A DNA stretch of 43,017 nt from Halalkalibacter oceani. Its GTDB lineage: Bacteria; Bacillota; Bacilli; Bacillales; Bacillaceae_D. The notes beneath the pieces are model-generated. The model saw nothing but the letters and a program-made list of their open reading frames with translations. It made no database searches and was not told the origin of the DNA. The DNA lies in the NCBI RefSeq assembly GCF_023715605.1, contig NZ_JAMBOL010000029.1:1-43017 (forward strand), given 5' to 3'. A program made the position numbers and the translations under genes. Below, piece after piece: positions 19,317 to 38,620 of the stretch. Within the stretch, counting starts at the first letter, position 1, and each line of letters starts with the position of its first letter.

Positions 19317-19400
19317 GCAATGAGCGGAGCCGCCACGATCTTTTAAAGCCCGATGTGAGAAACCAACTCACATCGGGCTTGTGGCGTGTGTAGCCATTGC
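19317..19400 (-). repeat. Structured palindromic element, copy A
   Basis: Plan on the plus strand: outer arm GCAATG, 9-base AGCGGAGCC, inner arm GCCAC, 9-base GATCTTTTA, 14-bp hairpin starting AAGCCCGATGTGAG with 7-base loop AAACCAA, then GTGGC, 9-base GTGTGTAGC and CATTGC. It is 81/84 identical to copy B. On the minus strand the hairpin is followed by TTTAAAAG, a weak U-tract. Confidence 0.85.
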
Positions 19401-19498
19401 CAGTAGGTCCAAAGCTAGTTTTGTCTCAAGCTCTTATTTCGCATTTGACGATTGGCAGGAAGATACCTGAAGTCCGCACCGGTAAATGAGGAGCAAAG

Positions 19499-19675
19499 GG
19501 AACGTCATTCCGTTATTTCGCTTTCAGGGCCCTTCTCGTTGGGGTACAAGGAACCTCATTCCGCTATTGTCGGTTACAAGGTGGTTGAACCGCTTGTTTT
19601 TGCCTAGTAACGGAATCTCGTTCCTATTGTTGCACAGATGAGCGTCAAAATAGAAAAATAACGGAATCTTGTTCC
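19499..19675. repeat. Cluster of four GGAAC-N3-ATTCCG repeats
   Basis: Two copies run forward (19499-19517, 19550-19568) and two reversed (19608-19624, 19657-19675), each of the form GGAAC, three bases, ATTCCG, then (T/C)TA. Each can form a tiny GGAA/TTCC hairpin. They lie between structured copies A and B. No gene is seen anywhere in 19246-19859. Confidence 0.65.
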
Positions 19676-19732
19676 AACACCCTGTGCCTCCAAAGGCGGG
19701 AAAGAGCCATCCTTGAACTTCGGCCAGACTAA

Positions 19733-19816
19733 GCAATGAGCGGAGCCGCCACGATCTTTTAAAGCCCGATGTGAGAAACCCACTCACATCGGGCTTGTGG
19801 CAAGTGTAGCCATTGC
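19733..19816 (-). repeat. Structured palindromic element, copy B
   Basis: Same plan and nearly the same sequence as copy A, with the same perfect 14-bp inner hairpin and the loop AAACCCA. It ends 43 bases from the tagO stop and, on the minus strand, is the only hairpin that could terminate tagO transcription. Confidence 0.85.
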
Positions 19817-19859
19817 TACGCCATGCTAACCAGGTTTGTTTTATTTTTTTCCATACGCT

Positions 19860-20915
19860 TTATAGCGGTCGTCTGGCATTGGCCAGCCGTCTTAAGAAAT
19901 TCATCATCGGGCGATAATCCTTGCTGATCAGGCCGACTCGTTCCACTAAAAACTCAATGGCAAAGAGCAGGACGAAAATGATCAGAACAGATGTCCAGAA
20001 CGTCGCCATTGTCATCATGACCGCGGCGAGGCTGAAGAACGCCGTCATCGCGTAAATCGTCAGCACTGTCTGTCTGTGCGTCAGACCGAGCCGTAACAGA
20101 CAGTGGTGCAAATGAGATTTATCCGGTGCTGATAACGGTTTTTTCTGTACAAGGCGACGGATAATCGCAAACAGGGTGTCCGAAATCGGAATCGCCAAAA
20201 TGACAATCGGCACTAGCAATGAGGAAACCGTGACATTTTTAAAGCCGAGCAGGGCGATCACCGAAATCATGAAACCGAGGAATAAAGCTCCTGTATCCCC
20301 CATAAAGATTTTCGCCGGGTTAAAGTTATGAACGAGGAAGCCGAGCGTACTTCCTAACAGAATGACACCTAAAGCGGCGACGAACATGCTGCCATCCATA
20401 ATCGCAATACCGGTAATCGTCAGCAGCACGATCGACGATACACCAGCCGCAAGCCCATCAAGCCCGTCAATTAAATTAATCGCATTCGTTACCCCGATAA
20501 TCCAGAGCAACGTTAATGGAATGCTGAACCAGCCAAACTCCAGCTGCATCTCAAATGGCAAGTTGATAAACTCCACCTGGACACCGCCATAGACGACAAC
20601 AGCTGCGGCCGCGACCTGTCCGAGCAGCTTCCATTTCGCCGACAGCTCAATCATATCATCAAGAAAACCAGTCACAATAATAATGAAGCCGCCGATTAAA
20701 ATCGGGATCGTATAGCTGCTTTCCGGCTGCAAAATCAAAAATCCAACTAAAAAACCAATATATATCGCTAAACCGCCGAGCCGAGCCATCACCTTCTGGT
20801 GAACTTTACGATGATTAGGCTTGTCTGTGGCGCCAATTTTAATCGCAAAACGCTTCACAACCGGAGTAATCAAAACCGTCACGATGAAGCAAATCACTAA
20901 TGCTAAAACAAGCAT
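19860..20915 (-). CDS. tagO: Undecaprenyl-phosphate GlcNAc-1-phosphate transferase TagO
   Basis: A 351-residue multi-pass membrane enzyme that starts wall-polymer synthesis by moving GlcNAc-1-phosphate from UDP-GlcNAc to undecaprenyl phosphate. Motifs of the MraY/WecA family are clear: TDKPNHRKVHQKVMARLGGL, FLDDMIELSAKWK, NAINLIDGLDGLAAG, FMGDTGALFLGF and SHLHHCLLRLGLTHRQ. The ATG at 20915 follows AAGGAGGG by five bases; the TTG at 20945 has no site. It has its own promoter and serves the teichoic-acid or secondary-polymer pathway together with TagA and the LCP protein. Confidence 0.93.
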   Translation of the reverse strand: MLVLALVICFIVTVLITPVVKRFAIKIGATDKPNHRKVHQKVMARLGGLAIYIGFLVGFLILQPESSYTIPILIGGFIIIVTGFLDDMIELSAKWKLLGQVAAAAVVVYGGVQVEFINLPFEMQLEFGWFSIPLTLLWIIGVTNAINLIDGLDGLAAGVSSIVLLTITGIAIMDGSMFVAALGVILLGSTLGFLVHNFNPAKIFMGDTGALFLGFMISVIALLGFKNVTVSSLLVPIVILAIPISDTLFAIIRRLVQKKPLSAPDKSHLHHCLLRLGLTHRQTVLTIYAMTAFFSLAAVMMTMATFWTSVLIIFVLLFAIEFLVERVGLISKDYRPMMNFLRRLANARRPL

Positions 20916-21006
20916 GCTGACCCTCCTTATTTCTACCTTCTCCAACTTATCTCTTTTTATGATTTTCTTTCGTCATTCACACTCTTTTAATCTATTACCT
21001 TTTCGG

Positions 21007-21015
21007 ATTATAGCA
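21007..21015 (-). promoter_or_regulatory. Extended -10 promoter of tagO
   Basis: The minus strand reads TGCTATAAT, a perfect -10 with the upstream TGN extension, about 90 bases before the tagO ATG. No good -35 is visible at the right spacing, as is common for extended -10 promoters. Confidence 0.55.
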
Positions 21016-21151
21016 TAAATAAAGCAACCAGGCACAGTCATTTCTTAACAATCCCTAACGGCTGCCACAATTTCACACATTTCCGAAAATGTCATCCATC
21101 ATTTCCCTGCTCGCCTGGTTCTGAAACATGTTAAAAGAGGAAAATCTCTTG

Positions 21152-22213
21152 TTAGATGCTACTCTTTCCCTGAAGGATATCATAAGCGGTCTGTCTCGCT
21201 TTTTGCCGCGCTTCCTTCGTATAAAGCTGCATATCAGTGATGGCCTGCTCTCTCTTGCTAAGCTGAACGTCAGCTTGCTCATAAAGCATATCCGCTTCCC
21301 ATTTTTCATTGACATGAGCGGCGACCGGCTGGCGGCACAGCTTGGCAAAGGAATCAATCTTCGGATCATAGGACAGCGCGACAAAAGGCGTATCACCAAC
21401 CGCGGCGAAAATTAGCGCATGAAGCCGCATCCCGATCAGCAGCTCGCTGTCTGTGATCCACTTTATTTTTTCCATAATCGTTGCTTCATGCGGAGCGAGC
21501 GTCGCCTCGGCCGTCATCAGCTGCCGTGTTTCCTCCGATGCTTTTGCATCATGCTCACCGTGCATCGGCACGAAAACAATCGGATAACCTTCCGCGGCAA
21601 GCCTGTCGAGGCTGTGGGCCAGCTCTTGCTTAAAATGATGCTCACTCGGCCAGTCGCGCACTGAAACGGCAATATACGGCGCCGCGACGAAACGATCCTC
21701 AGACTGAGCCGGAGTTAAGCCGAGCACTGGATCAGGCACTTGCGCAATCGGCTTCGTCACGCCAATCCGTTCGAGCAATTGTTTCGATTCTGCATCGCGG
21801 ACGGTGAGCAGCCGACTGCCGTTCAATGTCCGTCTGACAATCGCCTGATTCCGTTTGCTTTGCAGGGGGCCGATCCCTTGAGCATAGACATAATAAGGCT
21901 TACGCAGCCATTTGGCGATCCACATCACCGCCGAATAGTAAATGACGCTGCGGTTTCCTGTCTTATCCTGAAGCAGGCTGCCGCCGCCGCTAATCACCCC
22001 ATCAGAGGAACGGATCGCCCGGATGATCTCTTTTATCTTCCACCGGTTAACAGCCTTCACTTGATACTTGGAGGCGGTTTGCTCCGGCTGGTTGGAGAGA
22101 ACCGTAATCTCAACCGCCGGATCGGCCTCACGCAACGCGCTTATAATCGCGTACAAGATCGCTTCATCGCCGACATTATCAAAGCCGTAATAGCCAGATA
22201 AAACGAGCCTCAT
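21152..22213 (-). CDS. csaB: Polysaccharide pyruvyl transferase CsaB
   Basis: A 353-residue enzyme that adds ketal-linked pyruvate to the secondary cell-wall polysaccharide, the modification recognised by SLH domains. The N-terminus has LSGYYGFDNVGDEAILYAI, then ISGGGSLLQD, YVYAQGIGPL, VRDAES and, in the second half, LLIGMRLHALIFAA with the catalytic-region histidine. The ATG at 22213 overlaps the stop of the DUF5693 gene (ATGA); AAAGAGGTGG precedes it. The three SLH proteins in this window are its likely downstream clients. Confidence 0.93.
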   Translation of the reverse strand: MRLVLSGYYGFDNVGDEAILYAIISALREADPAVEITVLSNQPEQTASKYQVKAVNRWKIKEIIRAIRSSDGVISGGGSLLQDKTGNRSVIYYSAVMWIAKWLRKPYYVYAQGIGPLQSKRNQAIVRRTLNGSRLLTVRDAESKQLLERIGVTKPIAQVPDPVLGLTPAQSEDRFVAAPYIAVSVRDWPSEHHFKQELAHSLDRLAAEGYPIVFVPMHGEHDAKASEETRQLMTAEATLAPHEATIMEKIKWITDSELLIGMRLHALIFAAVGDTPFVALSYDPKIDSFAKLCRQPVAAHVNEKWEADMLYEQADVQLSKREQAITDMQLYTKEARQKARQTAYDILQGKSSI

Positions 22214-24171
22214 CCAAGCCACCTCTTTCTTACTTCAGGGTACACGTAACGGATGATCAGGCGATAAATGAAAATAAGCACAAGCCCGATCAAAAAACCA
22301 AATACAAGGCCGTAGCCCGTTCTAATTAAGGAAACAAGCAGGGCGGTATGCAAGTGAGTAAACGTGCCGACCATCGAAGCGAAGCCGAGCATCCCCAATG
22401 TAATAAAGAGCGGCGCCGCTTTTTCGTTTTTCATCCGCAAGTACAGGCCGAGCACAAATAGTGGAAATCCGACAAGAAATTCCGACGTGCGCGGACGTAC
22501 ATATAACACTGATTCAAGCCAGTATCTAAATTCAAGCTCATACGGCAGCGTCAACGCGGCATTTCCCGTCCGCCACACATAGAAACCAAGTACACCGACA
22601 ACGAGCCCCATGATCACGACATGCCAATAGCGCACCGGCTCATTCATCAGCTTCTTCAAGAAGGAAGCAAACAGCACAAACCCGACAACAAGAACCGGCA
22701 CAGCGGCAAGCACCTTCACCCCTCTGAACTCATCCACTTTCATGACAAAGGTCGGTCCATAAAGCAGCGCGATCACAAGCCACGCTCCCGTTAAGGCGAT
22801 TGCTGCTGATAACGCATATTGCCCGACTAGCTGCTTCCAATCTTTAATCCGGTCAACAGCTAAGCCGGCATAAACCGCCCCGCTAATCGCCGTTAGTAAG
22901 GCGAGACCTTTCAAGGCGACGTCGACATGAAGCAGCGCCAGCGCACTTAACCCAAGAGCGCCGACCGCGGCGAGTACACCGAGATAGCGATGGAGGGCCA
23001 AACCCGTTAAGCTCAGGAAAGCGACCGTTCCTGCCAAGACTAGCAGGGTGATGATAAATGGCTGTGAAAACGACTGAAACGGCTGGGCTGTCCCGGCCTG
23101 ATCTGCTCCAAGCTGGTTTGTCAACAACTCAAGCATTTCAAGCGTATACGTGTAGCCCGTCAACGCTTCACCTGGGTGGTGATACGTCTCCATTCCGGTC
23201 GGGAAGTTCATCACCGGATTGACGTAGAGCATGCGGATATTGCGTTCCTTATAGCCGCGCAACGCTTTTTCGACCTCATCAACATAAGTTGTAGCTTCTC
23301 TTCCTTTTCCAAGCGTCATGCTAAACAGCCGGACGACATTTTCCTCCAGCTCGCCAACGCGTAAAAAGGCACTCATTCCACGTTGATCATTGAAGTCAAT
23401 CGTGACAATCGCCAGGCCGAGCTCTTTTGCCTTCCGGGCGAAGGTCCGCAGCTCTTCCGGATTATCAGCGCCGACGACATCATTTCCTGTAAAGGAAAGA
23501 GCCTCAGCCCCGTATTCCTCAACGAGCATGTCAAGCATGTCATACACATAATGATTTTCATTGTGGATATTCATAAAATGATTCGGTAAACGCGGTATGA
23601 TATGCAAGCCGGCATCATCAATCAATTGCAGCGCATCACGGTCAAAGCCGACAGGCATCGCATTTAAACTCACTTCATAAGGAAGAAACAAGTAAGCATC
23701 ATCGTCATAGGCATGAAAAGAAACATGAAGACGATTAGGAAGAATCCCTTCCTCTGTCATAATCGCATAGTGATTGTTGTACACCTCTTCGACAGTATCG
23801 ATGTATTCACTGTCCTTCTCCAGCAGCTTGACGAATTGCCCGTTGTTTTCCGGGAGCTCTCCCCGTGCCTCTGGATGCTCATGCTCAATCTCACTTCGTT
23901 GAATGCGTTCAAACACCCCGTCTTCAACGAGATCAGAAATCGTCAGCGGCTCAATACTAATCGACGTTAAGCCGTTTTCTCTTAATTCAGCCAAGGCTTG
24001 TCCGGCATCAAGCGATCCCTCCAGCATATCCGGCCACTGAGCAAATTGCTCATAAGGCATGACGACTTCATATGAACGGTTTTGCTGCTCAACTTGTACT
24101 CGTTCAATTAAAGATGGAATCGAGACGAGCAGCGCCAGGATCACCACAATCCAAAGACCTTTTTTTACCAA
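22210..24171 (-). CDS. DUF5693 family membrane protein
   Basis: A 653-residue protein of unknown function. One N-terminal membrane segment (about 5-22) is followed by an outside domain of about 330 residues that looks like a barrel fold (ALAELRENGLTSISIEP, LHIIPRLPN, ALSFTGNDVVGADNPEELR, LGLAIVTIDFNDQRG). Then come about ten membrane helices (350-640). It is translationally coupled to csaB and sits directly after the flippase gene, so a role in export, polymerisation or modification of the pyruvylated polysaccharide is a fair inference. The start is a TTG at 24171 with AAAGGA upstream. Confidence 0.8.
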   Translation of the reverse strand: MVKKGLWIVVILALLVSIPSLIERVQVEQQNRSYEVVMPYEQFAQWPDMLEGSLDAGQALAELRENGLTSISIEPLTISDLVEDGVFERIQRSEIEHEHPEARGELPENNGQFVKLLEKDSEYIDTVEEVYNNHYAIMTEEGILPNRLHVSFHAYDDDAYLFLPYEVSLNAMPVGFDRDALQLIDDAGLHIIPRLPNHFMNIHNENHYVYDMLDMLVEEYGAEALSFTGNDVVGADNPEELRTFARKAKELGLAIVTIDFNDQRGMSAFLRVGELEENVVRLFSMTLGKGREATTYVDEVEKALRGYKERNIRMLYVNPVMNFPTGMETYHHPGEALTGYTYTLEMLELLTNQLGADQAGTAQPFQSFSQPFIITLLVLAGTVAFLSLTGLALHRYLGVLAAVGALGLSALALLHVDVALKGLALLTAISGAVYAGLAVDRIKDWKQLVGQYALSAAIALTGAWLVIALLYGPTFVMKVDEFRGVKVLAAVPVLVVGFVLFASFLKKLMNEPVRYWHVVIMGLVVGVLGFYVWRTGNAALTLPYELEFRYWLESVLYVRPRTSEFLVGFPLFVLGLYLRMKNEKAAPLFITLGMLGFASMVGTFTHLHTALLVSLIRTGYGLVFGFLIGLVLIFIYRLIIRYVYPEVRKRWLG

Positions 24172-24220
24172 CGTAATGACATCCTTTCAGCTTTTGATTT
24201 TACACTTCTATCGATGACCT

Positions 24221-25789
24221 TTATGTACGCTCCTTGGCGACAAATTTCGAGACGACCGGCAATGATTGCAGCAATGAGCGGTCGATTCCCTTCAGCGCCA
24301 GAACAAGTCCAACAAAAATCACCGCTCCCAGCACGATCGCCCCTGTCAAATAAAGCGCCATGACGCCCCGCGACCATTCCTCGTTAACAACGAACCAATG
24401 CAACAGCCCGAGCACTCCCGCCATTACAAGACTTGCCCCGGCAAAGACGACATGCGACCGCTTCAGCCAGGCATAGCTTATCGTCCGATAGAGAACGAAC
24501 AGATTCACAATCGTAATGAAAATATAGGTGACGAGCGTGGAAACCGCCGCACCGAGAACCCCTAATCTTGTCACGAGGAGAAGATTCAAGACTACTTTTA
24601 CAATAGAAAAAATAAGGACAATGACGGCCGCGGCACGCTCGCGGTTAGCCCCCTGCAGCATCCCGGTGCTAAGCACGGTAAAGGACGTAAACAGGGCGCT
24701 GATCGAAAGGACGAAAATAACCTCACTTCCAAGCGCATCGCCAAATAACACCACATTCATCGGGATTGTCACAGCTGTCATCCCGGCCGCTACAGGCCAT
24801 GATGTCAAATGCGTAAATGTCGTCGCCTTTGTCATCAACGCTGAAGCATCTGCCTGCCTCTGTTCTGTCAGGGCTTTCGTGATCGCCGGAATAAGCGGCA
24901 GGATCAAAGCGCTGGCAAACACAACAGCGACCTGGACGAGCGCCTGTCCGCGCCCGTAAATACCATATAACCTTGTAATCTCTTCACTTGTATGTCCCAT
25001 CGCTCCCAGCTGCCGCGGTACGGTCAAGGAATCGACGACATTTAGCAGCGCCATCGTCAGCGCCCCGAAGCAAATCGGCAAGGATACGATCAGAATTCGC
25101 TTGCTCCACCGTTTAAACTGGCTCCAGTTATAGGCTGCCCGTTTTTTCGGAAGAAGCTTGCTTTTCGCAAAAATGATTTTCAAATAAATAAGTGCGAGCA
25201 CGACGCCAACAGCGGAGCCGATCATCACGCCCCCGGCGACAATATCAATCGAATAAGCCTGGGCCGTTAAATAGACGGCCGCAACCAGAATGAGCAGCAC
25301 GCGAACAAGCTGCTCCAGCACCTGGGAAATCGCCGTCGGCATCATATCCTCAAACCCTTGGAAAAAGCCGCGGTAAACAGCCATATACGGCGCGAAAATA
25401 AGCGCCAGGGAAACGACCATAACCGAGTATGTAACGAGCGGCCCACCAAGCTGCATCGCAATGGTTTCGGCGAAGGTGAACATCAGCGCAAAGCTCACTA
25501 CTCCGAAAACGAGGCCGAGAATCGTCGCCGTCCGATAGATGAAGTAAATATCATCCGTGCGCCCTTCCCCCCGCGCCGTAGAAATCAGCTTTGAAATCGC
25601 CAGCGGAATGCCCGCCACTGTAATAATCAAGACAGACATGTACACCGGATAAACGGCGGTGAAAATTCCAAGTACTTCATCACCGGCAATATTTTGCAAA
25701 GGAATACGGAAGGCACTGCCGAGCACCTTGGAAATAAAGGTGGCGATCGTTAGCCAAATCGCCCCCTTTAAAAAGGAAGAACGGCTCAT
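24221..25789 (-). CDS. MurJ/SpoVB-like polysaccharide flippase (MOP superfamily)
   Basis: A 522-residue membrane protein with about 14 predicted helices and the family start SSFLKGAIWLTIATFISKVL, then GSAFRIPLQNIAGDEVLGIF and KLISTARGEG. Members move lipid-linked saccharides across the membrane. B. anthracis has a MurJ-like gene in its csaB/secA2 neighbourhood, so this one probably serves the S-layer polysaccharide rather than general peptidoglycan. Its ATG overlaps the tagA-type stop (ATGA). A general lipid II flippase or sporulation role cannot be excluded. Confidence 0.88.
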   Translation of the reverse strand: MSRSSFLKGAIWLTIATFISKVLGSAFRIPLQNIAGDEVLGIFTAVYPVYMSVLIITVAGIPLAISKLISTARGEGRTDDIYFIYRTATILGLVFGVVSFALMFTFAETIAMQLGGPLVTYSVMVVSLALIFAPYMAVYRGFFQGFEDMMPTAISQVLEQLVRVLLILVAAVYLTAQAYSIDIVAGGVMIGSAVGVVLALIYLKIIFAKSKLLPKKRAAYNWSQFKRWSKRILIVSLPICFGALTMALLNVVDSLTVPRQLGAMGHTSEEITRLYGIYGRGQALVQVAVVFASALILPLIPAITKALTEQRQADASALMTKATTFTHLTSWPVAAGMTAVTIPMNVVLFGDALGSEVIFVLSISALFTSFTVLSTGMLQGANRERAAAVIVLIFSIVKVVLNLLLVTRLGVLGAAVSTLVTYIFITIVNLFVLYRTISYAWLKRSHVVFAGASLVMAGVLGLLHWFVVNEEWSRGVMALYLTGAIVLGAVIFVGLVLALKGIDRSLLQSLPVVSKFVAKERT

Positions 25790-26523
25790 GATGTCCTCTT
25801 CCGCTTCTCACGCAGAATCCGTCCGGCAAAAACCGGCAGCGCCAGCATCCGGCGCCAGCGGGACGGCTGTTTGACAAGACGGTAGAACCATTCAAGATGA
25901 ATCTTCTGCCAAAAAACAGGCGCGCGCTTCACTTCACCGGCTAACACGTCAAAGCTCCCGCCAATCCCCATGAAGATTCCTTTCTCGAACTGGTCATAGC
26001 GTTCGGCAATCCACTTCTCCTGACGTGGAAAACCAAGGGCAAGAAAAACGAGGTCCGGTTTTTTCAAACGGATTTCGTCCTCAATTTCCGTCGAATCCCA
26101 GTCAAAATAGCCGTGATGGGAACCAGCCACCTCGACCTGTGGAAATTGTCTCTCGATCGCAGCAATTGTTTTCTCTAACACTTCTTCTTTCGCTCCCAGT
26201 AAATAAACACTGAATTTCCGCTCATTCGCCACTTCCAATAAGGAGAGGAACATATCGAAGCCCGTTACGCGCTCCGGCAGCGGATCACCAAGCAGTCCCG
26301 CCGCTTTCACGACGCCAATTCCATCCGCGGTAATATAGCTTGCCTTGGCAAGATACGTTCTGTACGCTTCATCCTCCTGCGCATGCAGCACAATCTCCGG
26401 ATTAGCTGTGACGACAAATGCTTTTTCCTCACGCTCCAAATGACCTGAGAGACGCGCGATCATCTCGTTCATTGTCGTATGTAAAAAGTCAACACCAAGA
26501 ACAGAAACGGTGCGATTTGACAT
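25786..26523 (-). CDS. tagA: WecG/TagA/CpsF family glycosyltransferase
   Basis: A 245-residue peripheral enzyme that, in the teichoic-acid pathway, adds ManNAc to the TagO product. Family motifs: SVLGVDFLHTTMNEM, FVVTANPEIV with T39, YITADGIGVV with D67 (the catalytic Asp of TagA), then ERVTGFDMF, KPDLVFLALGFPRQEKWI and GIGGSFDVLAGEVKRAP. The C-terminal WFYRLVKQPSRWRRM segment is the membrane-binding tail. It is the first gene of the run tagA, flippase, DUF5693, csaB, all overlapping or close, and is transcribed away from secA2. Confidence 0.9.
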   Translation of the reverse strand: MSNRTVSVLGVDFLHTTMNEMIARLSGHLEREEKAFVVTANPEIVLHAQEDEAYRTYLAKASYITADGIGVVKAAGLLGDPLPERVTGFDMFLSLLEVANERKFSVYLLGAKEEVLEKTIAAIERQFPQVEVAGSHHGYFDWDSTEIEDEIRLKKPDLVFLALGFPRQEKWIAERYDQFEKGIFMGIGGSFDVLAGEVKRAPVFWQKIHLEWFYRLVKQPSRWRRMLALPVFAGRILREKRKRTS

Positions 26524-26587
26524 TGTTTTTCACCAACTCACTTCTATAATATAATATCAACGATTATCGATTTTTGAAAAGTGTGTG

Positions 26588-26673
26588 GCAATGGCTTCGT
26601 GCGCTACTCGCATAGAGAGAAGAACCCCACTTCTCTCTATGCTTTTAAGGATTGTAGCGACTACGCTCATTGC
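26588..26673 (+). repeat. Structured palindromic element, copy C, in the secA2 upstream region
   Basis: Same plan as copies A and B but inverted. Outer arms are GCAATG/CATTGC and second arms GCTAC/GTAGC, a compensatory change from GCCAC/GTGGC. The inner hairpin is different (GCATAGAGAGAAG against its complement) with a 7-base loop. On the plus strand the hairpin is followed by TTTTAAGG, so it faces secA2, whose ATG is 187 bases further on. A second hairpin (GCTTATCCC / GGGATAAGC) follows at about 26679-26701. The rest of 26524-26859 is non-coding. Confidence 0.75.
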
Positions 26674-26859
26674 TTCGTGCTTATCCCACAAGGGGATAAG
26701 CCCTACCATAGCCGATCATATCAAAAATCGGGAGGTTTTGGAATTGATTTTTCGACAGCGGATCGACAATTCCTCTTATTCCCAGTCGTTTCTTCTCTAT
26801 TAATGGTTCATAAAGTCGTGTTATACTTACAAATGATGTCTAATGAAGGAGAGAAGCTA

Positions 26860-30234: not shown

Positions 30235-30237
30235 TTC

Positions 30238-31971
30238 TTATTTATAGTAATCTAACAATCCTTCATAAATCGCCTGCGCTGAGCTTTGACGGAAGGAATC
30301 CTTTTTCAGCAATTCCGCTTCAGATGGATTGGTGATAAAACCGAGCTCAAGCAGAACACTTGGCATTCTCGTTTCACGAATCACCTGGAAATTCCCCTGC
30401 TTCACACCGCGGTCTGTCGTTCCAAGGTGGGCGATCAGCCGCTTATGAATCGAGTTGGCGAGCTTTTCGCTGTTCGCAGCGGAATAAGTCGCATACCAAT
30501 ACGTTTCCGTTCCCTTTGCCGCTTCAGAACCGGCCGCATTGGCGTGAATGCTGATGAAGACCTCCGCATTGACATCATGGGCGACCTTTACGCGGTCGGA
30601 CAAGGATGGATACACATCGGCATCACGGGTCATGATAACATTGGCGCCCGCTTCACGAAGCAGCTTCTCCGTACGGAGGCCAACATCGAGGACAAGCTCT
30701 TTTTCCTGAAGGCCATTGGCCGTCGCACCCGGATCACTGCCTCCATGTCCCGGATCGATGACAATTTTCTTACCGGACAATGGCTTTCCAGCTACTTTCG
30801 GCGTCACATTGATAATCAGTTCGCCAGTCGTGTGGCTGACAGCCGCCTGATAGCCGTCGCTGACCGTAAAGGTAATCGTTTTGCCATTGGACTGGTTGGA
30901 GATGGCGAAATCGGCTACGCCTTTCACTGCGCGTGTCAGCTGTTCCACTTCCACAGCGTCAGTTTGAATTGTTACTTTATTGCCTGACTGACTATGGGAG
31001 CTGGCGACCGTCCCCCCGATTTTCGGCCAGGTGACAGTTGTTGTATTGCTTACTTCAGAAATCGTCGGCTGGCCGAGCATTTTCTGTTGCTGATTACCGG
31101 CATACAAGTCAAGATAATAGGAATGAACATAGGCCTCCCGGCCATTGAAGCTGATTTTCGCCCAACGGTCGGAAAAGCCGGAAACCTCAACACGGGCTCC
31201 TTTTGAAAGCTGGCCGATCGATTCATACTGAGTTCCCGGACCTGTTCGTACTTGAAGGGAATCCGCGCGGCTCACTTGCCCGGAGTAAGCCCCTTTTACA
31301 TCTGTCTCAGGCGGCTGCTGAACCGGCGGAGCAGCCGTGCTGCTATTGACCCGGACTTCCTTTGTCGCCTGATTCCAGGAAACGTCTTTCCCAAATGCTT
31401 CCGCAAAGAAGCGCAACGGAATCACTGTGCTGTTTTCAATGATTTTAGGGGCCGGGCTGACTTGCAGCGTTTGCCCGTTCACCTTTGCCTCTTCCTTGTT
31501 CACCGTTAAAATAACTTCGGTTCCCCCTTCGCGGGCGGTGACCTGCTTTATTTGCTGCTGCCATTTGACATCAATCCCCAAAGCTTCGCCAATCACCCGA
31601 AACGGGACGAGTACATGATTATTCTCCATAGGAACCTTTGAAATCGTCGGCTCCAGTTTTTGATTATTCACATAAATGGAGATATCATTCGCTGAAGCCG
31701 ATGATTTAACCGTGATGTAATCCTTATGTACATATCCGTTACGGCCTTGCAGCTGGATTTGATGCCAATCTCCCGACGTGCGGATGATCGTCACCGTCGC
31801 CCCTGGCTGAAGAGAACCAATACGTTCACTTGTCGTGGAAGGCTCCGCGCGAACATTTAAAGTTGAACCGCTCGTAACAGTCCCTTCCGAAGCTGCTGCC
31901 GCATAGGTCGCCCCTAAAAAAAGTGTACAAGCGATGATGAAGACTGCGATGAAAATCCTTTTTCCACTCAT
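30238..31971 (-). CDS. N-acetylmuramoyl-L-alanine amidase with SH3 and copper-amine-oxidase-like domains
   Basis: A secreted 577-residue autolysin that cleaves the bond between muramic acid and the stem peptide. Signal peptide about 1-28; SH3b domain about 30-90 (TLNVRAEPSTTSERIGSLQ); copper-amine-oxidase N-like stalk about 97-210 (VLVPFRVIGEALGI, VIPLRFFAEAFGK); second SH3b about 238-290; AMIN-like region about 298-390; Amidase_3 domain about 399-577. The zinc and catalytic residues are present: H409 (DPGHGG), E423, H476 (SIHAN) and E542 (LLELGF). No SLH domain. It is convergent to secA2-slaP. Start ATG at 31971, or the TTG just before it; GGGGAG lies upstream. Confidence 0.93.
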   Translation of the reverse strand: MSGKRIFIAVFIIACTLFLGATYAAAASEGTVTSGSTLNVRAEPSTTSERIGSLQPGATVTIIRTSGDWHQIQLQGRNGYVHKDYITVKSSASANDISIYVNNQKLEPTISKVPMENNHVLVPFRVIGEALGIDVKWQQQIKQVTAREGGTEVILTVNKEEAKVNGQTLQVSPAPKIIENSTVIPLRFFAEAFGKDVSWNQATKEVRVNSSTAAPPVQQPPETDVKGAYSGQVSRADSLQVRTGPGTQYESIGQLSKGARVEVSGFSDRWAKISFNGREAYVHSYYLDLYAGNQQQKMLGQPTISEVSNTTTVTWPKIGGTVASSHSQSGNKVTIQTDAVEVEQLTRAVKGVADFAISNQSNGKTITFTVSDGYQAAVSHTTGELIINVTPKVAGKPLSGKKIVIDPGHGGSDPGATANGLQEKELVLDVGLRTEKLLREAGANVIMTRDADVYPSLSDRVKVAHDVNAEVFISIHANAAGSEAAKGTETYWYATYSAANSEKLANSIHKRLIAHLGTTDRGVKQGNFQVIRETRMPSVLLELGFITNPSEAELLKKDSFRQSSAQAIYEGLLDYYK

Positions 31972-32023
31972 CAATACTTACTCCCCTTTCCATTAAACAT
32001 GTATCGGAGTGAAAAGCTGGCGA

Positions 32024-32056
32024 AACCCTGCGCCATCGGAAACCTGACGCAGGGTT
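32024..32056 (-). terminator. Hairpin after the SLH glucosaminidase gene
   Basis: AACCCTGCG (32024-32032) pairs with CGCAGGGTT (32048-32056), 39 bases beyond the stop. The U-tract is short (TTT), so termination may be partial and the amidase gene could receive read-through. Confidence 0.55.
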
Positions 32057-32094
32057 CTGCTAACTTACTAGTAAAGCTGACCCTCAAATCATAT

Positions 32095-33990
32095 TTAACG
32101 CTTCATAATTGAAACCGGCTGCACATAATTCCCATGGACATAGCCAAATTCATGATCCTTATGATCCGAATAGATTCTGTGCCATGTGCCGTCAGATTGA
32201 TTCGTGCTTTCAAGCAAGGCGACAAAATAGTTTGCCCCCGGATATTGATATTGTGAAGCCAGTCTCGTATTTGGTTCCGGTCTGACATTCAATGCTTCCG
32301 TTGTTCTGGCGATCGTATAGTAGCCATAATCTTTTTTACCGAGATACGTGTCGGCTCGATACATATGGCCTGCGATCTTCTGTCCCCAAAATGGATCTGA
32401 GGCATAATTGACATTCATTCCATAGCTTTTATTTCCAAGAACCGCGCCGCGATAATTCACCCCGTCAGGCGTCAAATAGCGTTCATCCATCGCTTCAGCG
32501 ACAAACATAATTGACTCTTCAAAGCTGGCAAACGGTTTGGCGTTGCCGAGCGGATCACGGTCATACGCCTGATAGCCAAATAGATTTTTACGCTGATTGG
32601 CAATTTCACTTAGCCCGTAGCTGCTCTCATGGATCGCCTTGGCGAATAAATAAAGAGCATTGATGCCATATCGCTCTTCAGCCTGCTTAAAAACGTGCCC
32701 CAAATTGCGCAGCGGACTTTCCTGAGCGACGACTTTTCCGTTAATCTCCGTCGTTACGGAACGAATATAGCGGTTCAAGTCCTCAGCTGTGTAATTTGTT
32801 TTCGTACGCAATGGCAAATAGTTAAAGTATTGATAAGCTTCGCCAACCTTTTGACCGGACGTATTATAGAAATCACGTCCATTGCGGCTGTAATAACGCT
32901 CATTTTCCTGCATAAACGATGGTGCGTCTCCGTAATAATACATTCCTGTCGCATTCGTCAGCGGATTATAGACATAATGCCGCAGGACGCCGTTGACCGA
33001 CTGATAATAAGAGCGTCCCTGCAACATCCCTGTCGGAATCAGCTTCGCGTCCCTTTGGCGGACAAAGCCGGTGCTATCCGCATAGCGTACTTCAACCCAC
33101 TCTTCATCAGAGCCGATATATTCCAGTTCAGCGCCACCCATGACATAAGTGAGCTGAGTCGTCTTATTGGAAGCAAAAATTCTCGTCGTTGATTCTCCGG
33201 CTGATGGCGAGGCTGCCACCATTCCGCCCTGCATTTTTAAAATTTTCTCACCTTTCACAATAACTTCGGCTCCGGCCTGCTCTGCATCACGATAGCTCAA
33301 ATACGGCTGAGGCTGAAGGCGCACTTGACCGCCGGAATCAACCGTACCGACATGGTAAAGCTCCGTATTTCCTGTGCCGGTTTCCGCCACTTTCAGCATC
33401 CGAATCATGAACGCAGCCGCATGAGCGCGGGTCGCGTCATCTTTTGGACCAAAACGAAAGCGCTGGTTCCCTTGCGGCATTCCTTGAATAATGCCGAAAT
33501 AAGCATTATGAGCAACCGCCGTCCGGAACGTCGGATGGATTTGCTCCGTGTCCGTAAAGGTTAAGGCGATTGGTGTACGCTGCACCTGTTTATATTCCAG
33601 CGCCCGATCAATCATCACAGCCATCTGTTCACGCGAAATATTTTCCTCAGGACGAAAAACATTTCCCGGATACCCGCCAACGATTCCCGCTTTTGAAGCC
33701 CGTCCAATTCCTCCCGCTAATGGATGAGAAGCCGGTACGTCACTGAAAGAGGCTGTCCCGGATGGAAGCTCAAGCGCCCTTGCCAGGAACGTCGCGAATT
33801 GGGCACGAGTAACCGCGTCATCCGGCCCGTAGCGTCCATTCCCGTACCCCGCCATAATTCCACGGGCAACGGCCTCACGCATTTCAGTTTCGAGTGAATG
33901 ACCTGTTAAATCATCCGCCGCCTCTACACTTGCACCAGCCTGAAAGAAAACCGTACTTAAAACGAATAAAATAGCAAGAAAGTGTTTCAA
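32095..33990 (-). CDS. SLH-domain endo-beta-N-acetylglucosaminidase
   Basis: A secreted 631-residue wall hydrolase bound to the surface by SLH domains, comparable in role to B. anthracis BslO. Signal peptide about 1-25; three SLH domains about 28-200 with the VTRAQF, ISREQM and ATRAHA motifs that meet the pyruvylated polysaccharide; a Tyr/Gly-rich linker region about 205-395; glucosaminidase domain about 425-560 with probable catalytic E455 (AIHESSYGLSEIA); a C-terminal SH3-like domain about 565-631 (ALNVRPEPNTR). The start is a TTG at 33990 with AAAGGAG seven bases upstream. It may trim peptidoglycan for cell separation. Confidence 0.9.
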   Translation of the reverse strand: MKHFLAILFVLSTVFFQAGASVEAADDLTGHSLETEMREAVARGIMAGYGNGRYGPDDAVTRAQFATFLARALELPSGTASFSDVPASHPLAGGIGRASKAGIVGGYPGNVFRPEENISREQMAVMIDRALEYKQVQRTPIALTFTDTEQIHPTFRTAVAHNAYFGIIQGMPQGNQRFRFGPKDDATRAHAAAFMIRMLKVAETGTGNTELYHVGTVDSGGQVRLQPQPYLSYRDAEQAGAEVIVKGEKILKMQGGMVAASPSAGESTTRIFASNKTTQLTYVMGGAELEYIGSDEEWVEVRYADSTGFVRQRDAKLIPTGMLQGRSYYQSVNGVLRHYVYNPLTNATGMYYYGDAPSFMQENERYYSRNGRDFYNTSGQKVGEAYQYFNYLPLRTKTNYTAEDLNRYIRSVTTEINGKVVAQESPLRNLGHVFKQAEERYGINALYLFAKAIHESSYGLSEIANQRKNLFGYQAYDRDPLGNAKPFASFEESIMFVAEAMDERYLTPDGVNYRGAVLGNKSYGMNVNYASDPFWGQKIAGHMYRADTYLGKKDYGYYTIARTTEALNVRPEPNTRLASQYQYPGANYFVALLESTNQSDGTWHRIYSDHKDHEFGYVHGNYVQPVSIMKR

Positions 33991-34007
33991 AAAAAAGCTC
34001 CTTTCTT

Positions 34008-34028
34008 AAGGGCTGCAAAGCAGCCCTT
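34008..34028 (-). promoter_or_regulatory. Perfect hairpin before the SLH glucosaminidase ribosome site
   Basis: AAGGGCTGC and GCAGCCCTT pair around a three-base loop, just upstream of AAGAAAGGAG. There is no direct U-tract. It may be a 5' stabilising stem, or a weak terminator of the gene ending at 34111. A TATAAT box on the minus strand at 34070-34075 suggests that transcription starts upstream of the hairpin. Confidence 0.45.
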
Positions 34029-34110
34029 CCCACAGAATAATGACTTTTATGAATCTTTCTCATTCTATCATTATACTGATAGATAAAAATAGTTGGAGAT
34101 TGCTGTTAAT

Positions 34111-36369
34111 TTACTGACTAACCCGATCAAGGAAGACTGAGAATTCAGCTCTTGTCGTTGGTAAGGCAGGACCAAATCCACCGCCGGGTTGGCCTTGAGC
34201 AATTCCGTTCGCTTTTAACGCATCAATCGCTTCATAGGCCCAATGCGTGCTTGCCACATCAGGGAACGGCTCGGACGATTGCCCTGTAATGCTGTACGCA
34301 CGCTGAAGAATTGTCGCCATCTCCGCTCTCGTCAACGTTGCTTTCGGGTCAAAGCTTGATGCTGATTTTCCGCTCATAATGCCTGCCCGGTCAACCGCGG
34401 CAATCGCATCATAGTAAAACGACTGGGACGTGACATCATTAAAGGCCGGACGGTGATTCCCCGCGGACAAGTTAAGAGCCCGTGCAATCATGATCGCCGT
34501 CTGCTCACGCGAGATCGCTTCACCCGGCCGGAATGATCCGTCACTATAGCCGCTGATCACATTGCGGTCATTCAGCGCTAAAATCGACTGACGCGCCCAG
34601 AAGGAAGAGGAAACATCCTTAAACCGTTCGACTTGATAGGAAGATTGATAGATCGCTTCCAGCTGGTCAAAGAAGACGGCACCCTTCCCTTGCTTCTCTG
34701 CGCTTCCTTGCGCCGTATAAACTTGTTCCACCTTAAATGGCTGAGGGGCATCAGCAGGCAGCTGCGCCCGCACATAACGCCAGCCTGTCCAATTAAATTG
34801 GTTTTCCTCGGTGAAATTGATTGTATGTCTTTGTCCATTACCGTCAATAACCGTCGCCCGCAGCCAGTGCTCCGCCCCATCACCGGAAGCCCACATGCCG
34901 AGTTCCAGCGGACGTCCCTGTAAAGGAATCGCTGTTCTTGCTTTCGCATAGGCCGCGGCAATTCCGCTCTCACCTTTCGAGTAATCATAAGTGAGTTTCA
35001 ATGATTTTGAGCCGACCCGAACCGGATCGTATGGACCCGACAAGGAAATCGAAGCTTCAGCCCGCGCACTGCTCGCTGTCCAGTTATTCAGATTCTCAAA
35101 TGGATCGACGACAAGCATCGGCTCCGTCACCCTTTTAGGCGGTTCGCTCGAAATGACCTGAAGGGTATTCGGCACCGCTCTTAGGCTTGATTCTGAAGGC
35201 CGGTTCACGGTAATCGCCTGCTCATAGTATGGCAGACGCGCCACCATTGTCGTCGAGCCTCCGCCATCAAGATTGATAGCCTGATAAGCGCCTAATGAGC
35301 GCATATACTCAGCAAGCTCACGCAACGTAGCTCCCTGACTGTAGCCTGATTGCCGACCATCAATCGTCACAAGGAACAGCTTTGTCCCATCTCCGGAAAT
35401 TCCGACTGCCGACCGCGGATGCCGGGAAGTCGCAAATGAACCGGACTCATTCATCGAAATCGAAACCTGGCCGTTGCGCACAAGAGTCGGCCCTGTAGCC
35501 ATCATGAATTCAGCGTCTTTCCATGTGTCATTGATTTGCGCCTCAACGGTAATGGAATCACCGACCGCTACCCCGGCCAGTGATTGGGCAAGGGCTCCCC
35601 CATTCGCCGAGATGACAAAACCGTCTTCAGGAATCGGGGTGTTCGCCCCTTCTCCCAATCTGCGAATCTCGGAAACCGTGCCTGTAATACGGTCACCAAA
35701 GGCAAAATTTTTGGCACTTTTCGACGTGTTGGTCACAACGATTTCGGTCGCATACTGACTCGCCCCGGTCGTTGCCGCCTGATGACCGCCTGTAAACAGG
35801 ACAGCCTGTCCATTTTCCCGCTGCCCGTTGACAGATGTCAGCGGGATCGTCTGGCCATTGATCTCAAAGCTCATTTGCGGCTCGTAATCAGCGATCGTCA
35901 GCGCTCCGTTACGGTTCACACCGAAAGCAAAAGGCGCATTAACCGGCCCATCATCATTGGAGAGGATTCCGTAATTAATAATTTCATTTTGCTTGATGAG
36001 CATATTAACAGGAATTCCATTCGCTAAATTATAAAACGAAGCATTGACCGCGCCGACTACATAATGCCCGTCATATGTATTGGCAATCGCCTGCTGCGGA
36101 GTCGTCTGTACCCGTCCTAGCGGTGAAAGCTGATAAAGCTCAAGATCAACCGCCGGATTGCGGTATGCGACATCGAGTACTTGCACCGCGCGGGGTGTTC
36201 CGCCGGAAGTAAGATAATGCTCGCGGATTAACGATACCCCTGTTGAAATTTCGTCCTTCGTTGACGATTGCTTATTGCCAAACCCGCTGTATGCTTCGGC
36301 CTGAAACGGGCTGACGACTAACGCAATCCCAACGACATAAGCTGCCAGTTTTTGATTTATTTTCTTCAA
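34111..36369 (-). CDS. Phosphodiester glycosidase (NAGPA-like) with three C-terminal SLH domains
   Basis: A secreted protein of about 752 residues. Signal peptide to about residue 28. The phosphodiester glycosidase domain follows (about 50-400), with VVGAVNASFYNL, RHPRSAVGISGDG, LFLVTIDGRQSGYSQGATL and the hallmark AINLDGGGSTTMV. A beta-rich carbohydrate-binding-like region (about 410-555) contains LELGMWASGDG. Three SLH domains (about 570-752) have ISREQTAIM, LTRAEMATI and TTRAEFSVF. The domain class removes sugar phosphates from glycans or proteins. Start: a TTG at 36369 with GGAG eight bases upstream gives a normal MKK-type signal; the GTG at 36378 is the alternative but touches the ribosome site. 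Confidence 0.88.
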   Translation of the reverse strand: MKKINQKLAAYVVGIALVVSPFQAEAYSGFGNKQSSTKDEISTGVSLIREHYLTSGGTPRAVQVLDVAYRNPAVDLELYQLSPLGRVQTTPQQAIANTYDGHYVVGAVNASFYNLANGIPVNMLIKQNEIINYGILSNDDGPVNAPFAFGVNRNGALTIADYEPQMSFEINGQTIPLTSVNGQRENGQAVLFTGGHQAATTGASQYATEIVVTNTSKSAKNFAFGDRITGTVSEIRRLGEGANTPIPEDGFVISANGGALAQSLAGVAVGDSITVEAQINDTWKDAEFMMATGPTLVRNGQVSISMNESGSFATSRHPRSAVGISGDGTKLFLVTIDGRQSGYSQGATLRELAEYMRSLGAYQAINLDGGGSTTMVARLPYYEQAITVNRPSESSLRAVPNTLQVISSEPPKRVTEPMLVVDPFENLNNWTASSARAEASISLSGPYDPVRVGSKSLKLTYDYSKGESGIAAAYAKARTAIPLQGRPLELGMWASGDGAEHWLRATVIDGNGQRHTINFTEENQFNWTGWRYVRAQLPADAPQPFKVEQVYTAQGSAEKQGKGAVFFDQLEAIYQSSYQVERFKDVSSSFWARQSILALNDRNVISGYSDGSFRPGEAISREQTAIMIARALNLSAGNHRPAFNDVTSQSFYYDAIAAVDRAGIMSGKSASSFDPKATLTRAEMATILQRAYSITGQSSEPFPDVASTHWAYEAIDALKANGIAQGQPGGGFGPALPTTRAEFSVFLDRVSQ

Positions 36370-36603
36370 CCTCTTCACTCCAAACTATAGATGACTTACA
36401 CATTTGTCGAGAATCTCCAACATATACGCCTATAATTTTACAAGGTTTCCTATGTAATTAAAAGGTAGATTACGAAACTTTGAAATTTTTGTAGGGAATT
36501 GATACTTTATGCTCAGTCCCTTTCTTTCCTGTAAGAAGAGCTACAAAAAATATACTGCCATTAGGAGATGGCCCTTCGTAAACTTTAAAGAATCTACAGA
36601 AAA
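36370..36603. other. Non-coding spacer upstream of the phosphodiester glycosidase gene
   Basis: AT-rich sequence between two minus-strand genes. Open frames here have no ribosome site and no protein-like composition. A promoter for the downstream SLH gene should lie here, but I see no convincing -35/-10 pair. Confidence 0.5.
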
Positions 36604-36644
36604 AGGCTGGACAAAAGGTTGTTTTTTCACCTTTCGTCCAGCCT
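36604..36644 (-). terminator. Terminator after the Spo0E-like gene
   Basis: A 16-bp stem with one mismatch (36604-36619 against 36629-36644, arms beginning AGGCTGGACAAAAGGT) has a 9-base loop TGTTTTTTC and is followed by T-rich sequence on the minus strand. It is a relative of the hairpin at 19268-19312. Confidence 0.75.
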
Positions 36645-36668
36645 CTGGCAAAGCCGGTTATTTTCCTG

Positions 36669-36827
36669 TTAGTCATGAATTGCCTGATAACGGTTCAGCA
36701 GGGAGTCCAGCTGCTGGCTGCAGGAAACAACTCTGGAGTCAGTCATGCCGAAGTATCTTGCTTTTATATACATTTCTCTTTTCTTTAAGGTAATAGCCGA
36801 TAGTAAGATGGCCTTTTTACAGAACAT
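36669..36827 (-). CDS. Spo0E-family aspartyl-phosphate phosphatase (small, 52 residues)
   Basis: A short gene of 52 codons between the SLH genes. AGGAG lies eight bases before the ATG at 36827, and a terminator follows 24 bases after the stop. The protein has the Spo0E-like plan: a first helix (AILLSAITLKKREMYIKARY), a short turn (FGMTDSRVVSC) and the family signature SQQLDSLLNRYQ (37-48), in which SQxLD is the key motif. Spo0E proteins dephosphorylate Spo0A~P and hold back sporulation; several small paralogues per genome are usual. It has no signal peptide. Assignment rests on this motif and length only. Confidence 0.82.
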   Translation of the reverse strand: MFCKKAILLSAITLKKREMYIKARYFGMTDSRVVSCSQQLDSLLNRYQAIHD

Positions 36828-37030
36828 TGTTCTCTCTCCTTCACCTAACTAAATCATCGTGCACATCAAAGGAGGTAAACTCTTGGAAGCTTTGAACACC
36901 TTCATTATCTTAACGCAGCAGGCTAATGGATTTTGTAGAATTTTGTCAGCTGATTCATTGTTCATATATCTGTCATATTTCCACTTCCCTGCCCAGTTAC
37001 CATTACCATCCACGCTATCCCGTATCACCT
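36828..37030. other. Spacer with a doubtful short ORF
   Basis: Mostly non-coding. On the plus strand a perfect AAAGGAGGT (36868-36876) lies six bases before a TTG (36883) that opens 64 codons to 37077. The frame has a plausible first half, but its Pro/Ser-rich second half overlaps the opposite gene at 37031-37219. I do not call it a gene. Confidence 0.35.
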
Positions 37031-37219
37031 TTACTTGCTTCTCTTTTCCTTCTGCACACGTGCAGCCTGCGGCATGACATACTGCTGTAACCGTGCTGCA
37101 ATATCCCCTACAGCTTCTGCTGTGTTCATCGTCTCAACTTCATATGCTGCTTTCGAATAAACACCTCGGAGGATGAGCAGCAATTCCTGCTCATTCAATG
37201 GTTTTTGTTTCATTTTCAT
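37031..37219 (-). CDS. Small hypothetical protein (62 residues)
   Basis: Not recognised. From the ATG at 37219 (AGGAG seven bases upstream) it encodes a basic N-terminus (MKMKQK), then a helix-rich stretch (EQELLLILRGVYSKAAYEV, AEAVGDIAARLQQYVMPQA) and a basic tail (KEKRSK). It has no signal peptide, membrane segment or cysteine. The good ribosome site and amphipathic helices argue that it is real. The longer frame to 37282 has no site. It is upstream of and in the same direction as the Spo0E-like gene, and it is divergent from the CAP/SLH gene. Confidence 0.6.
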   Translation of the reverse strand: MKMKQKPLNEQELLLILRGVYSKAAYEVETMNTAEAVGDIAARLQQYVMPQAARVQKEKRSK

Positions 37220-37417
37220 TATTCTGCTCCTCTTCTTATCACTCGTAGGCGGTTCTTTGCTGGCATGAGAGCGAATTGGCACAGTTTTTCTTATACCCTT
37301 CTATCAATCTGCAAAACATTTCTTTGCCTTCCTTATCTCGTTGCCACAAGCCTCCTCACACGTTTCTATTACATTTCAACGTCATCTTTGTAATCTGAAA
37401 AATGATCATTTATTCCA

Positions 37418-37426
37418 TGCTATAAT
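37418..37426 (+). promoter_or_regulatory. Extended -10 promoter of the CAP/SLH gene
   Basis: TGCTATAAT, the same extended -10 as before tagO, lies about 42 bases upstream of the GTG start. No strong -35 is visible. The rest of 37220-37467 shows no gene. Confidence 0.55.
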
Positions 37427-37467
37427 TAAGCTTATTCTATCTATTTAGGAAAAAGGAGGAATTTGTT

Positions 37468-38502
37468 GTGAGATGTATACAACTTGGTATCAGCATCGTT
37501 CTCGCCGTCCTGCTGATTGCTGCCCCTGCTGCAGCCGATACTCCCTTTTCGGATGTCCCGGCCACCCACTGGGGAATCGATGCGATACATTACCTCGCCG
37601 ATCTTGAGATTATCCGCGGCTATGACGATCAAACGTTCAGGCCGGCGCAAACGGTGACAAGAGCTGATGCGGCGATCATGATAGCCCGAGCACTCGAATT
37701 GGAAATTGATGAAGCCTCATCCTCACCTTTCTCTGATGTCAGCCCGCAATTTTACGCCTACGACGAAATTGCAGCAGTAGCGGAAGCCGGCATTATCCAA
37801 GGCTTTAACGGGAGATATTCACCGCGCGACGACTTAACTAGAGGACAGATGGCAGCCATTTTGCAACGTGCCTTTGAGCTGTCCGGTACAGCTGACAATC
37901 AATTTTCAGACGTAGGAGAAACTCATCTCTTCTATTCTGAGATTCAGACACTTATCGCCAACCAAATCACCAACGGATACAGCGACAGAACATTCAGACC
38001 GGACAACAGCATGAGAAGAGATGAGTTTGCCACTTTCATCGCGAGAGCGTTAGATGAGAGTTTCCGGGCCATCACCTTCCCTCCGGAACCGGTCACGGAC
38101 GATGACGATCAGGATGTCCATCCATTTGAACACGAAGTGCTTGAACGAACGAATGAGGAACGGGCCAAGCATGGTCTTGATCCACTGGCTTTTGATGAGG
38201 AAACGCAAAAAGTCGCCCGCCTCAAATCCGAGGACATGCGCGACCGTCAATATTTTTCACATACGTCACCAACCTATGGCTCGCCTTTTGAGATGATGAG
38301 CCAGTTTGGCATCAACTACAGCTTCGCCGGAGAAAATATCGCCGCCGGCCAAACGACACCGAGTGAAGTCGTAGAAGCATGGATGAACAGCGAGGGCCAC
38401 CGCCAGAACATTTTAAATCCGAACTACACCCATCTCGGCGTCGGCTACGCAGAAGGCGGCTCCATGCGCCACTACTGGACACAAATGTTTGTTGGATACT
38501 AA
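37468..38502 (+). CDS. SLH-domain CAP/SCP family protein
   Basis: A secreted 344-residue surface protein. Signal peptide about 1-23 (ISIVLAVLLIAAPAAA); three SLH domains about 25-195 (VTRADAAIM, LTRGQMAAI, MRRDEFATF, each after a GY/GF-x-F-P/S-D/R strand); an acidic linker; CAP domain about 210-344 with ERTNEERAKHGLDPL, YFSHTSPTYGSP, GENIAAGQTTPSEVVEAWMN and the GHRQNILNPNYTHLGVGYA strand. The CAP histidine/glutamate pocket residues appear intact. The family resembles YkwD; its surface role is unknown. The start is GTG at 37468, with AAAGGAGG eight bases upstream. Confidence 0.9.
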   Translation: MRCIQLGISIVLAVLLIAAPAAADTPFSDVPATHWGIDAIHYLADLEIIRGYDDQTFRPAQTVTRADAAIMIARALELEIDEASSSPFSDVSPQFYAYDEIAAVAEAGIIQGFNGRYSPRDDLTRGQMAAILQRAFELSGTADNQFSDVGETHLFYSEIQTLIANQITNGYSDRTFRPDNSMRRDEFATFIARALDESFRAITFPPEPVTDDDDQDVHPFEHEVLERTNEERAKHGLDPLAFDEETQKVARLKSEDMRDRQYFSHTSPTYGSPFEMMSQFGINYSFAGENIAAGQTTPSEVVEAWMNSEGHRQNILNPNYTHLGVGYAEGGSMRHYWTQMFVGY

Positions 38503-38503
38503 A

Positions 38504-38528
38504 AGAAAGCGACAAGCTGTCGCTTTCT
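38504..38528 (+). terminator. Terminator of the CAP/SLH gene
   Basis: AGAAAGCGAC and GTCGCTTTCT form a perfect 10-bp stem with a 5-base loop directly after the stop codon. It is followed two bases later by structured element D. Confidence 0.7.
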
Positions 38529-38530
38529 GA

Positions 38531-38620
38531 AGCAGCGTACGGAGTCTGCGCCGGTTTTAAAAAATGAGAGTCAAAGCGGGTTTCTTTGACTCTCATTTTG
38601 CGCAGGACGGAGCCGCTGCT
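38531..38620 (-). repeat. Structured palindromic element, copy D, also the terminator of the oxidase/MFS pair
   Basis: Outer arms AGCAGCG/CGCTGCT, 9-base TACGGAGTC, second arms TGCGC/GCGCA, 9-base CGGTTTTAA, a perfect 16-bp hairpin (38561-38576 with 38584-38599) with 7-base loop CGGGTTT, no base before the second arm, and 9-base GGACGGAGC. Spacer lengths equal those of copies A and B exactly, though almost none of the paired sequence is shared. On the minus strand the hairpin is followed by TTTTTTAAAA, a good intrinsic terminator just beyond the MFS stop. Confidence 0.7.

Follow-up and report, generated by a model that had tools for sequence, protein, structure and literature searches.

Small gene-less mobile elements in Halalkalibacter oceani appear to replace hairpin signals at gene ends

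Structured copies in the window and the complete element

Four copies of a small structured repeat, A to D, lie in contig NZ_JAMBOL010000029.1 of Halalkalibacter oceani, a stretch of 43,017 nucleotides that we analysed whole and refer to as the window. They belong to a large family of gene-less mobile elements, which seem to take the place of the hairpin signals found where genes end. An original prediction, made from the sequence alone, had recognised a repeated unit of 84-90 nt and placed its four copies correctly: A (19317..19400) and B (19733..19816) on the plus strand, C (26588..26673) on the minus strand, and D (38532..38619, predicted as 38531-38620) on the plus strand. A and B are identical at 81 of 84 bases, as had been claimed, and their cores differ at the other three. 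The common spacer plan was borne out as well, since a search of the fetched loci by geometry alone recovered all four copies with 9/9/9 spacers and with inner-hairpin arms of 14 (A), 14 (B), 15 (C) and 16 (D) bases. When the four copies were aligned together, C came out misplaced, and the first covariance model was therefore built from D-like copies (D itself and four from other loci), with A, B and C left out; at E<=1 it returned exactly four matches in the window, at these same coordinates and strands. A looser finder detected 164 unique copies in the fetched loci; it detected none when every third locus was shuffled base by base, a control that keeps base composition only. A chance origin of the shared plan is excluded.

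The predicted unit is only the core of a larger element. The boundaries first drawn for it hold for the core but miss a hairpin upstream, H1, and a right end downstream. A complete element begins with a sequence X and its complement X', which together form H1; next, as a rule after TAA or GAA, comes a core of about 80-90 nt, and in many copies a spacer then leads to an X'-like right end that is complementary to X. In A-type copies with flanks the ends are sharp, and lengths are mostly 162-166 bp. Copy A occupies 19269..19433 (+), 165 bp from left to right terminal repeat, its ends lying where similarity among A-type copies stops; it has no coding capacity and carries terminal inverted repeats (GAGGCTGGGA../..TGTCTCAAGCTC), the features by which a miniature inverted-repeat transposable element (MITE) is recognised. 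Its H1 (19269..19311, +) has a 16-bp stem with the tip AAAAAGG..CCTTTTT, and a similar hairpin stands alone at this locus in a sister species. The right end of A (19411..19433, +) shares 20 of 23 bases with the right end of an insertion sequence of the IS1182 family, L332. Core B has no hairpin directly upstream in our hairpin scan. On the minus strand, H1 of C (26677..26703) has the stem GGGCTTATCC/GGATAAGCAC, the inner part of which is different in the sister species, and on the plus strand H1 of D (38504..38528) begins immediately 3' of the stop codon of the upstream open reading frame (ORF).

Of 74 nonredundant copies, 62 have a hairpin scoring at least 9 immediately upstream of the core. 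Such a hairpin was found downstream in 12 of 76 copies and at 20 of 200 places picked at random; when the score has to be at least 11, the corresponding counts are 55, 5 and 3. The stems of H1 differ widely between copies, and the tip is frequently AAAAGG..CCTTTT. The 3' arm of H1 is repeated downstream of the core (at least 12 of 14 bases) in 19 of 60 copies, against a permuted mean of 1.2 and a maximum of 5. H1 and right end also occur without a core, at four loci (L268, L270, L271 and L282). Head-to-tail arrays of cores with H1 or an X' arm, spaced by about 117-147 bp, were seen on contig C28 (L043-L045, three copies at 132 bp spacing), on contig C36 (L041), in genome G012 (L131/L142) and in H. 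alkaliphilus (L154).

Distribution of the family and fold of its core

Further copies, on which the original prediction had made its family depend, are plentiful in the genome. A-like copies occupy 40 places (40 of 136 candidates scored), and diverged D-like and C-like copies are present too. With the first model, for which 150 of 574 candidates were scored, there were 91 matches at E<=1, a few places being counted once on each strand; a model made from 106 copies gave 148 matches at E<=1e-5 among 150 scored of 1603 candidates. The union of three genome copy lists comprises 109 places.

Within the genus, all 13 genomes searched, our own included, contained matches, from 1 to 149 each with 150 candidates scored per genome. 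One other genome in the rest of the order had 68, and eight other genomes searched with the 106-copy model had none. Under stricter filters (73 candidates scored), the first model was positive in 14 of 60 relatives. A pattern scan of named genomes found at least 80 loci, in Halalkalibacter, Evansella, Alkalihalobacillus deserti, Bacillus solitudinis, Bacillus suaedae and a Bacillus metagenome-assembled genome; eight of the 80 listed loci fall in other taxa and, by eye, are without the plan. The genera that carry the family are alkaliphiles. A class-wide sample of 299 genomes, screened at low sensitivity (14 candidates scored), contributed one further genome with a true element. A plasmid or phage origin was rejected, the query 19272-19440 having no match among 72,556 plasmid and 50,697 phage records. 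Nine pattern matches fell in viral contigs, with a true copy by eye only in the IMG/VR contig L374, where an element at 3348-3429 has an H1 resembling that of Evansella copies.

The fold of the core is real. Conservation at the level of structure, which the original prediction had proposed from four copies, is upheld by covariation in 101 distinct aligned sequences, which beats 500 of 500 shuffles on all five measures. Paired cells make up 93.2% of the alignment, compared with 68.9% in shuffles and at most 42.3% when one side is slid; the alignment was fitted to the structure, a fit that the slid controls share. Changes on both sides occur at 30 of 32 pairs. The middle helix alone appears as GCCAC/GTGGC, GCTAC/GTAGC, TGCGC/GCGCA, GTTGC/GCAAC, GATGC/GCATC and CTTAC/GTAAG, among other variants.

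Two parts of the predicted structure had to be redrawn. The 9 x 9 internal loop is located correctly but is not unpaired: by the pair table it is mostly helix, resolved as one unpaired base, 2 bp, a 3x3 loop G.A/N.N/A.G, and 3 bp with a one-base bulge. GNA is found on both strands in 98 of the 101 aligned sequences, a figure biased by a model that was built from GNA-bearing copies. The inner hairpin, H2, had been called replaceable, which is true of the middle of its stem but not of its tip or, usually, its foot. In a tally of 76 nonredundant copies the tip is GAG/CTC in 49 and AAG/CTT in 18; these copies had been filtered for GNA beforehand (163 of 164 kept), so that the presence of GNA in 76 of 76 is circular. 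Because tip and usual foot are kept while the stem between them is free, no special mechanism has to be invoked for the replaceable arms. A minority of A-type copies, A and B included, have the seven-base loop of this hairpin in inverted orientation (AAACCCA-type versus TGGGTTT), as seen at L001-L004, L008, L040 and L185.

Gene ends, orthologous loci and candidate transposases

Fourteen of 159 copies lie inside an ORF of at least 100 codons, ORFs having been called mechanically for this and the following counts. Among the 88 copies with both neighbours placed, 3 sit in divergent gaps, a class that makes up 67 of 390 gaps in the background (p=0.0004). Convergent gaps hold 31 of the 88 and make up 82 of the 390 (p=0.008). 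The copies thus favour the 3' ends of genes.

The sequences just outside the elements suggest what may have stood there before. Flanks of 25 full A copies, which include one orthologous pair (L023 and L196), are complementary to each other, with runs totalling 48 compared with 21.0 when permuted; none of 5000 permutations reached as high. The left flanks are 49% A and the right flanks 69% T, against 26% and 31% further out. These flanks look like the remains of terminators.

Fourteen loci were queried and read in the genome of a sister species, G007. The same element is present at two of them (L005 and L023). At L258 the element is kept with H1 and right end changed, and at the C locus the core is kept with the inner part of H1 changed. 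L026 has a core with a truncated H1, and L021 a different H1 with a core remnant. At L081, H1 has been swapped on the same stem base and the core mostly deleted. The whole element is inverted at L018, and the core is inverted and H2 gone at L035. The D locus carries an A-type element, that is, a different subfamily at the same spot. At L010, an element of a second family is nested in the H2 arm of the same element, with an 8-bp repeat on both sides. The A locus has H1 alone, followed by a T-tract. Finally, a bare terminator-like hairpin stands at L016, where it is clear and where there is no target duplication, and at L003, where the alignment is less certain. If, as we infer, the bare state preceded the element at these two loci, they and the flanks of A-type copies would point to a stem-loop target that is mostly lost on insertion. 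An element of the second family noted at L315 (G007:C67:9800-10800) has a GTAATG core and ends like GCCACTGAAAAA, lies inside the H2 arm of an A-type copy and has CGTTGTGA on both sides.

A source of the ends was sought among IS1182 transposases, with PF13751 as the sole profile. Matches occur in 24 of 36 genomes searched, our own included, and 17 of these loci were checked for terminal repeats. Element-like repeats bound five of them (L332, L335, L328, L342 and, imperfectly, L341); at the others, other repeats or none were found. The repeat is GGCTGGGACAAAAC at L332, which is in a congeneric genome, GGGGCTGTCTCAAAAG at L328 and GAGGCCACTGAAAAA, the imperfect one, at L341. The ends of A-type copies therefore match those of an autonomous IS1182 member, L332. 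Five intact proteins pass the IS1182 model NF033551 (L332, L342, L328, L335 and L337), and they include those of four of the five insertion sequences with element-like ends (L332, L335, L328 and L342). The IS1182 fragments of G007 and of our own genome fall below the cut-off of that model. By eye, inverted flanks can be seen on either side of the L337 insertion sequence as well. We also observed many degenerate IS1182-type copies in G007 and our own genome (L376-L387), some beside A-type elements and several enclosing a palindromic repeat with CCTGCAGGAGTCGGCCC.

In summary, these elements are probably non-autonomous, hairpin-targeting mini-transposons with a structured interior, mobilised by IS1182 and replacing stem-loops as has been published for IS1272. 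An IS1182-type transposase acting in trans would cut the stem of the target hairpin; the hairpin would mostly be lost and the element would take its place, as for IS1272. In some subfamilies X is identical to the terminal repeats of IS1182-family insertion sequences in related bacteria. The variation in H1 would have two sources, the different IS1182 ends that the subfamilies follow and the replacement of the H1 hairpins themselves; core and H2 would vary because their sequence is free as long as pairing is kept. Among the options listed in the original prediction it is the MITE-like mobile element that finds support, from the many copies, the terminal inverted repeats, the matching insertion sequence ends in relatives and the bare-hairpin sites in the sister species.

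Several observations weigh against this interpretation. Our own genome keeps one short IS1182 fragment only, and three genomes with 46, 149 and 41 core matches (G005, G006 and G011, respectively) have no PF13751 match. Four reference repeats fit just 9 of 60 H1 stems. The core is in none of the IS1182 insertion sequences read, including relics near A-type copies in G007 and our own genome. Complementarity of the flanks is weaker in our own genome alone (27 versus 13.8; 49 of 10000 permutations), with a run of at least 4 at 4 of 18 sites. The nested insertion in G007 is flanked by an 8-bp repeat, unlike IS1272, and it is we who infer the polarity of the replacements, that is, which of the orthologous states came first.

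The conserved core of these elements may aid transposition, may terminate transcription or may have another role. We tentatively raise one possibility: that the core might be a folded module acting at the level of DNA, made up of the GNA/GNA loop, the one-sided T-rich bulge and the tip-conserved hairpin, and common to many hairpin-targeting transposons with different ends. It might enable hairpins at gene ends to be exchanged while termination is kept or taken over, a hairpin-for-hairpin replacement on the terminators of the genome. A core that acts as DNA would amount to a selectable structure within a mini-transposon; a core that terminates transcription would explain how insertions at gene ends can be tolerated in such numbers.

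Other explanations and known systems

The core could instead be a separate mobile unit that inserts beside existing hairpins, with H1 being part of the host site or of some other element. Similar cores do have different H1 stems, 12 of the 74 copies have no hairpin of score 9 upstream, and H1 is found without a core. Against this, H1, core and right end recur jointly with fixed ends in A-type copies, and many copies of other types show X' again on the far side of the core, which makes independent insertion of the core unlikely.

A functional RNA, processed or acting as a regulatory 3' untranslated element and spread by mobile ends, would account for the strong covariation, the conserved tip and internal loop, and the preference for gene 3' ends. 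Selection on RNA should also favour G.T over A.C among broken pairs, and no clear excess is seen even with a finder that favours G.T: the framework has 25 G.T versus 16 A.C (p=0.21), and with the H2 stems included the counts are 75 versus 56 (p=0.12). This weighs against selection on RNA without excluding it. Rfam had no match in the window at gathering scores, and a permissive search of five copies gave just three chance matches to microRNA families, below the cut-offs. The absence of an Rfam match, together with a core that is inverted or lacks its hairpin at orthologous loci, leads us to regard this option, which the original prediction had also listed, as rather improbable.

The prediction's modular terminator was right about place, since divergent gaps are depleted and convergent gaps enriched. 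Ordinary duplicated terminators without mobility would explain the position at gene 3' ends, the stable hairpins and the T-rich right flanks of A copies; H1 has no directly adjoining T-tract on its own strand. They are refuted as a full account, and are very unlikely, given dispersed near-identical copies with sharp ends, terminal repeats in common with insertion sequences, and the different contents of orthologous loci. Strict repetitive extragenic palindromic (REP) elements moved by a Y1 transposase (RAYT) are hardly credible, because, although the repeats are short, intergenic and structured and have GNAG motifs next to a hairpin, as in the REP tetranucleotide rule, the ends match IS1182 and our own genome has no PF01797 (Y1_Tnp) match in a search that was positive in 5 of 14 control genomes, which largely refutes them there. 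A passage of PMC3733652 describes the tetranucleotide rule. The bulge and the variable hairpin had also suggested an integron attC-like site, a reading that was set aside.

The preferred reading, replacement of hairpins by IS1182-mobilised elements, has few known counterparts: hairpin-targeting transposition is known from IS1272 and, it is said, from EFAR. EFAR is reportedly about 170 bp long and inserts into unrelated stem-loops, keeping parts of the target stems. For IS1272, a passage of PMC4923244 describes hairpin targets that are often terminators, and a blunt partial deletion of the stem-loop with no target duplication. Our elements resemble IS1272 and TnSha1 of the IS1182 family in their probable insertion into hairpins and in the GGCTGGGACAAAA-type ends on IS1182 members of this group; IS1272 and TnSha1 differ in being autonomous and larger, and none of the IS1182 members that we read showed the core.

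Other small repeats can be compared by description. Efa-1 of Enterococcus faecalis is, in the part of PMC2267715 that concerns it, a repeat of 163 bp in which two stem-loops lie side by side, and EFAR appears among the MITEs in part of PMC3733652; by description, EFAR/Efa-1 shares the similar length and the double hairpin with our family. The bcr1 repeat of the Bacillus cereus group is alike by description in size, structure and label: passages of PMC2267715 and PMC3733652 present it as structured, intergenic, about 150 bp long and a MITE, and they do not state hairpin targeting. BOX, RUP and SPRITE of Streptococcus pneumoniae are small repeats nested in each other, SPRITE being terminator-like, according to a passage of PMC10969869; RUP differs in being linked to IS630 and TA targets, as part of PMC2229807 has it. 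No description of the present family was found in the literature searched, most subscription papers being outside the reach of that search.

Hairpin-targeting IS1182 transposition itself is thus already known, and the interest lies in a conserved core without known role and in visible hairpin replacement. In one bacterial group as many as about 150 copies were detected in a single genome, and a folded core without an Rfam match is kept from genus to genus and in subfamilies whose ends differ. Because sites in the sister species can be seen bare, replaced, inverted or nested, it becomes possible to test directly which rules govern the choice of target and where the variable stems come from.

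One further observation concerns the window itself. Between A and B, at 19498-19676, four short related motifs occur, two as GGAACNTCATTCCGYTATT and two near its reverse complement (TAACGGAATCTNGTTCC), and these may be another small repeat.

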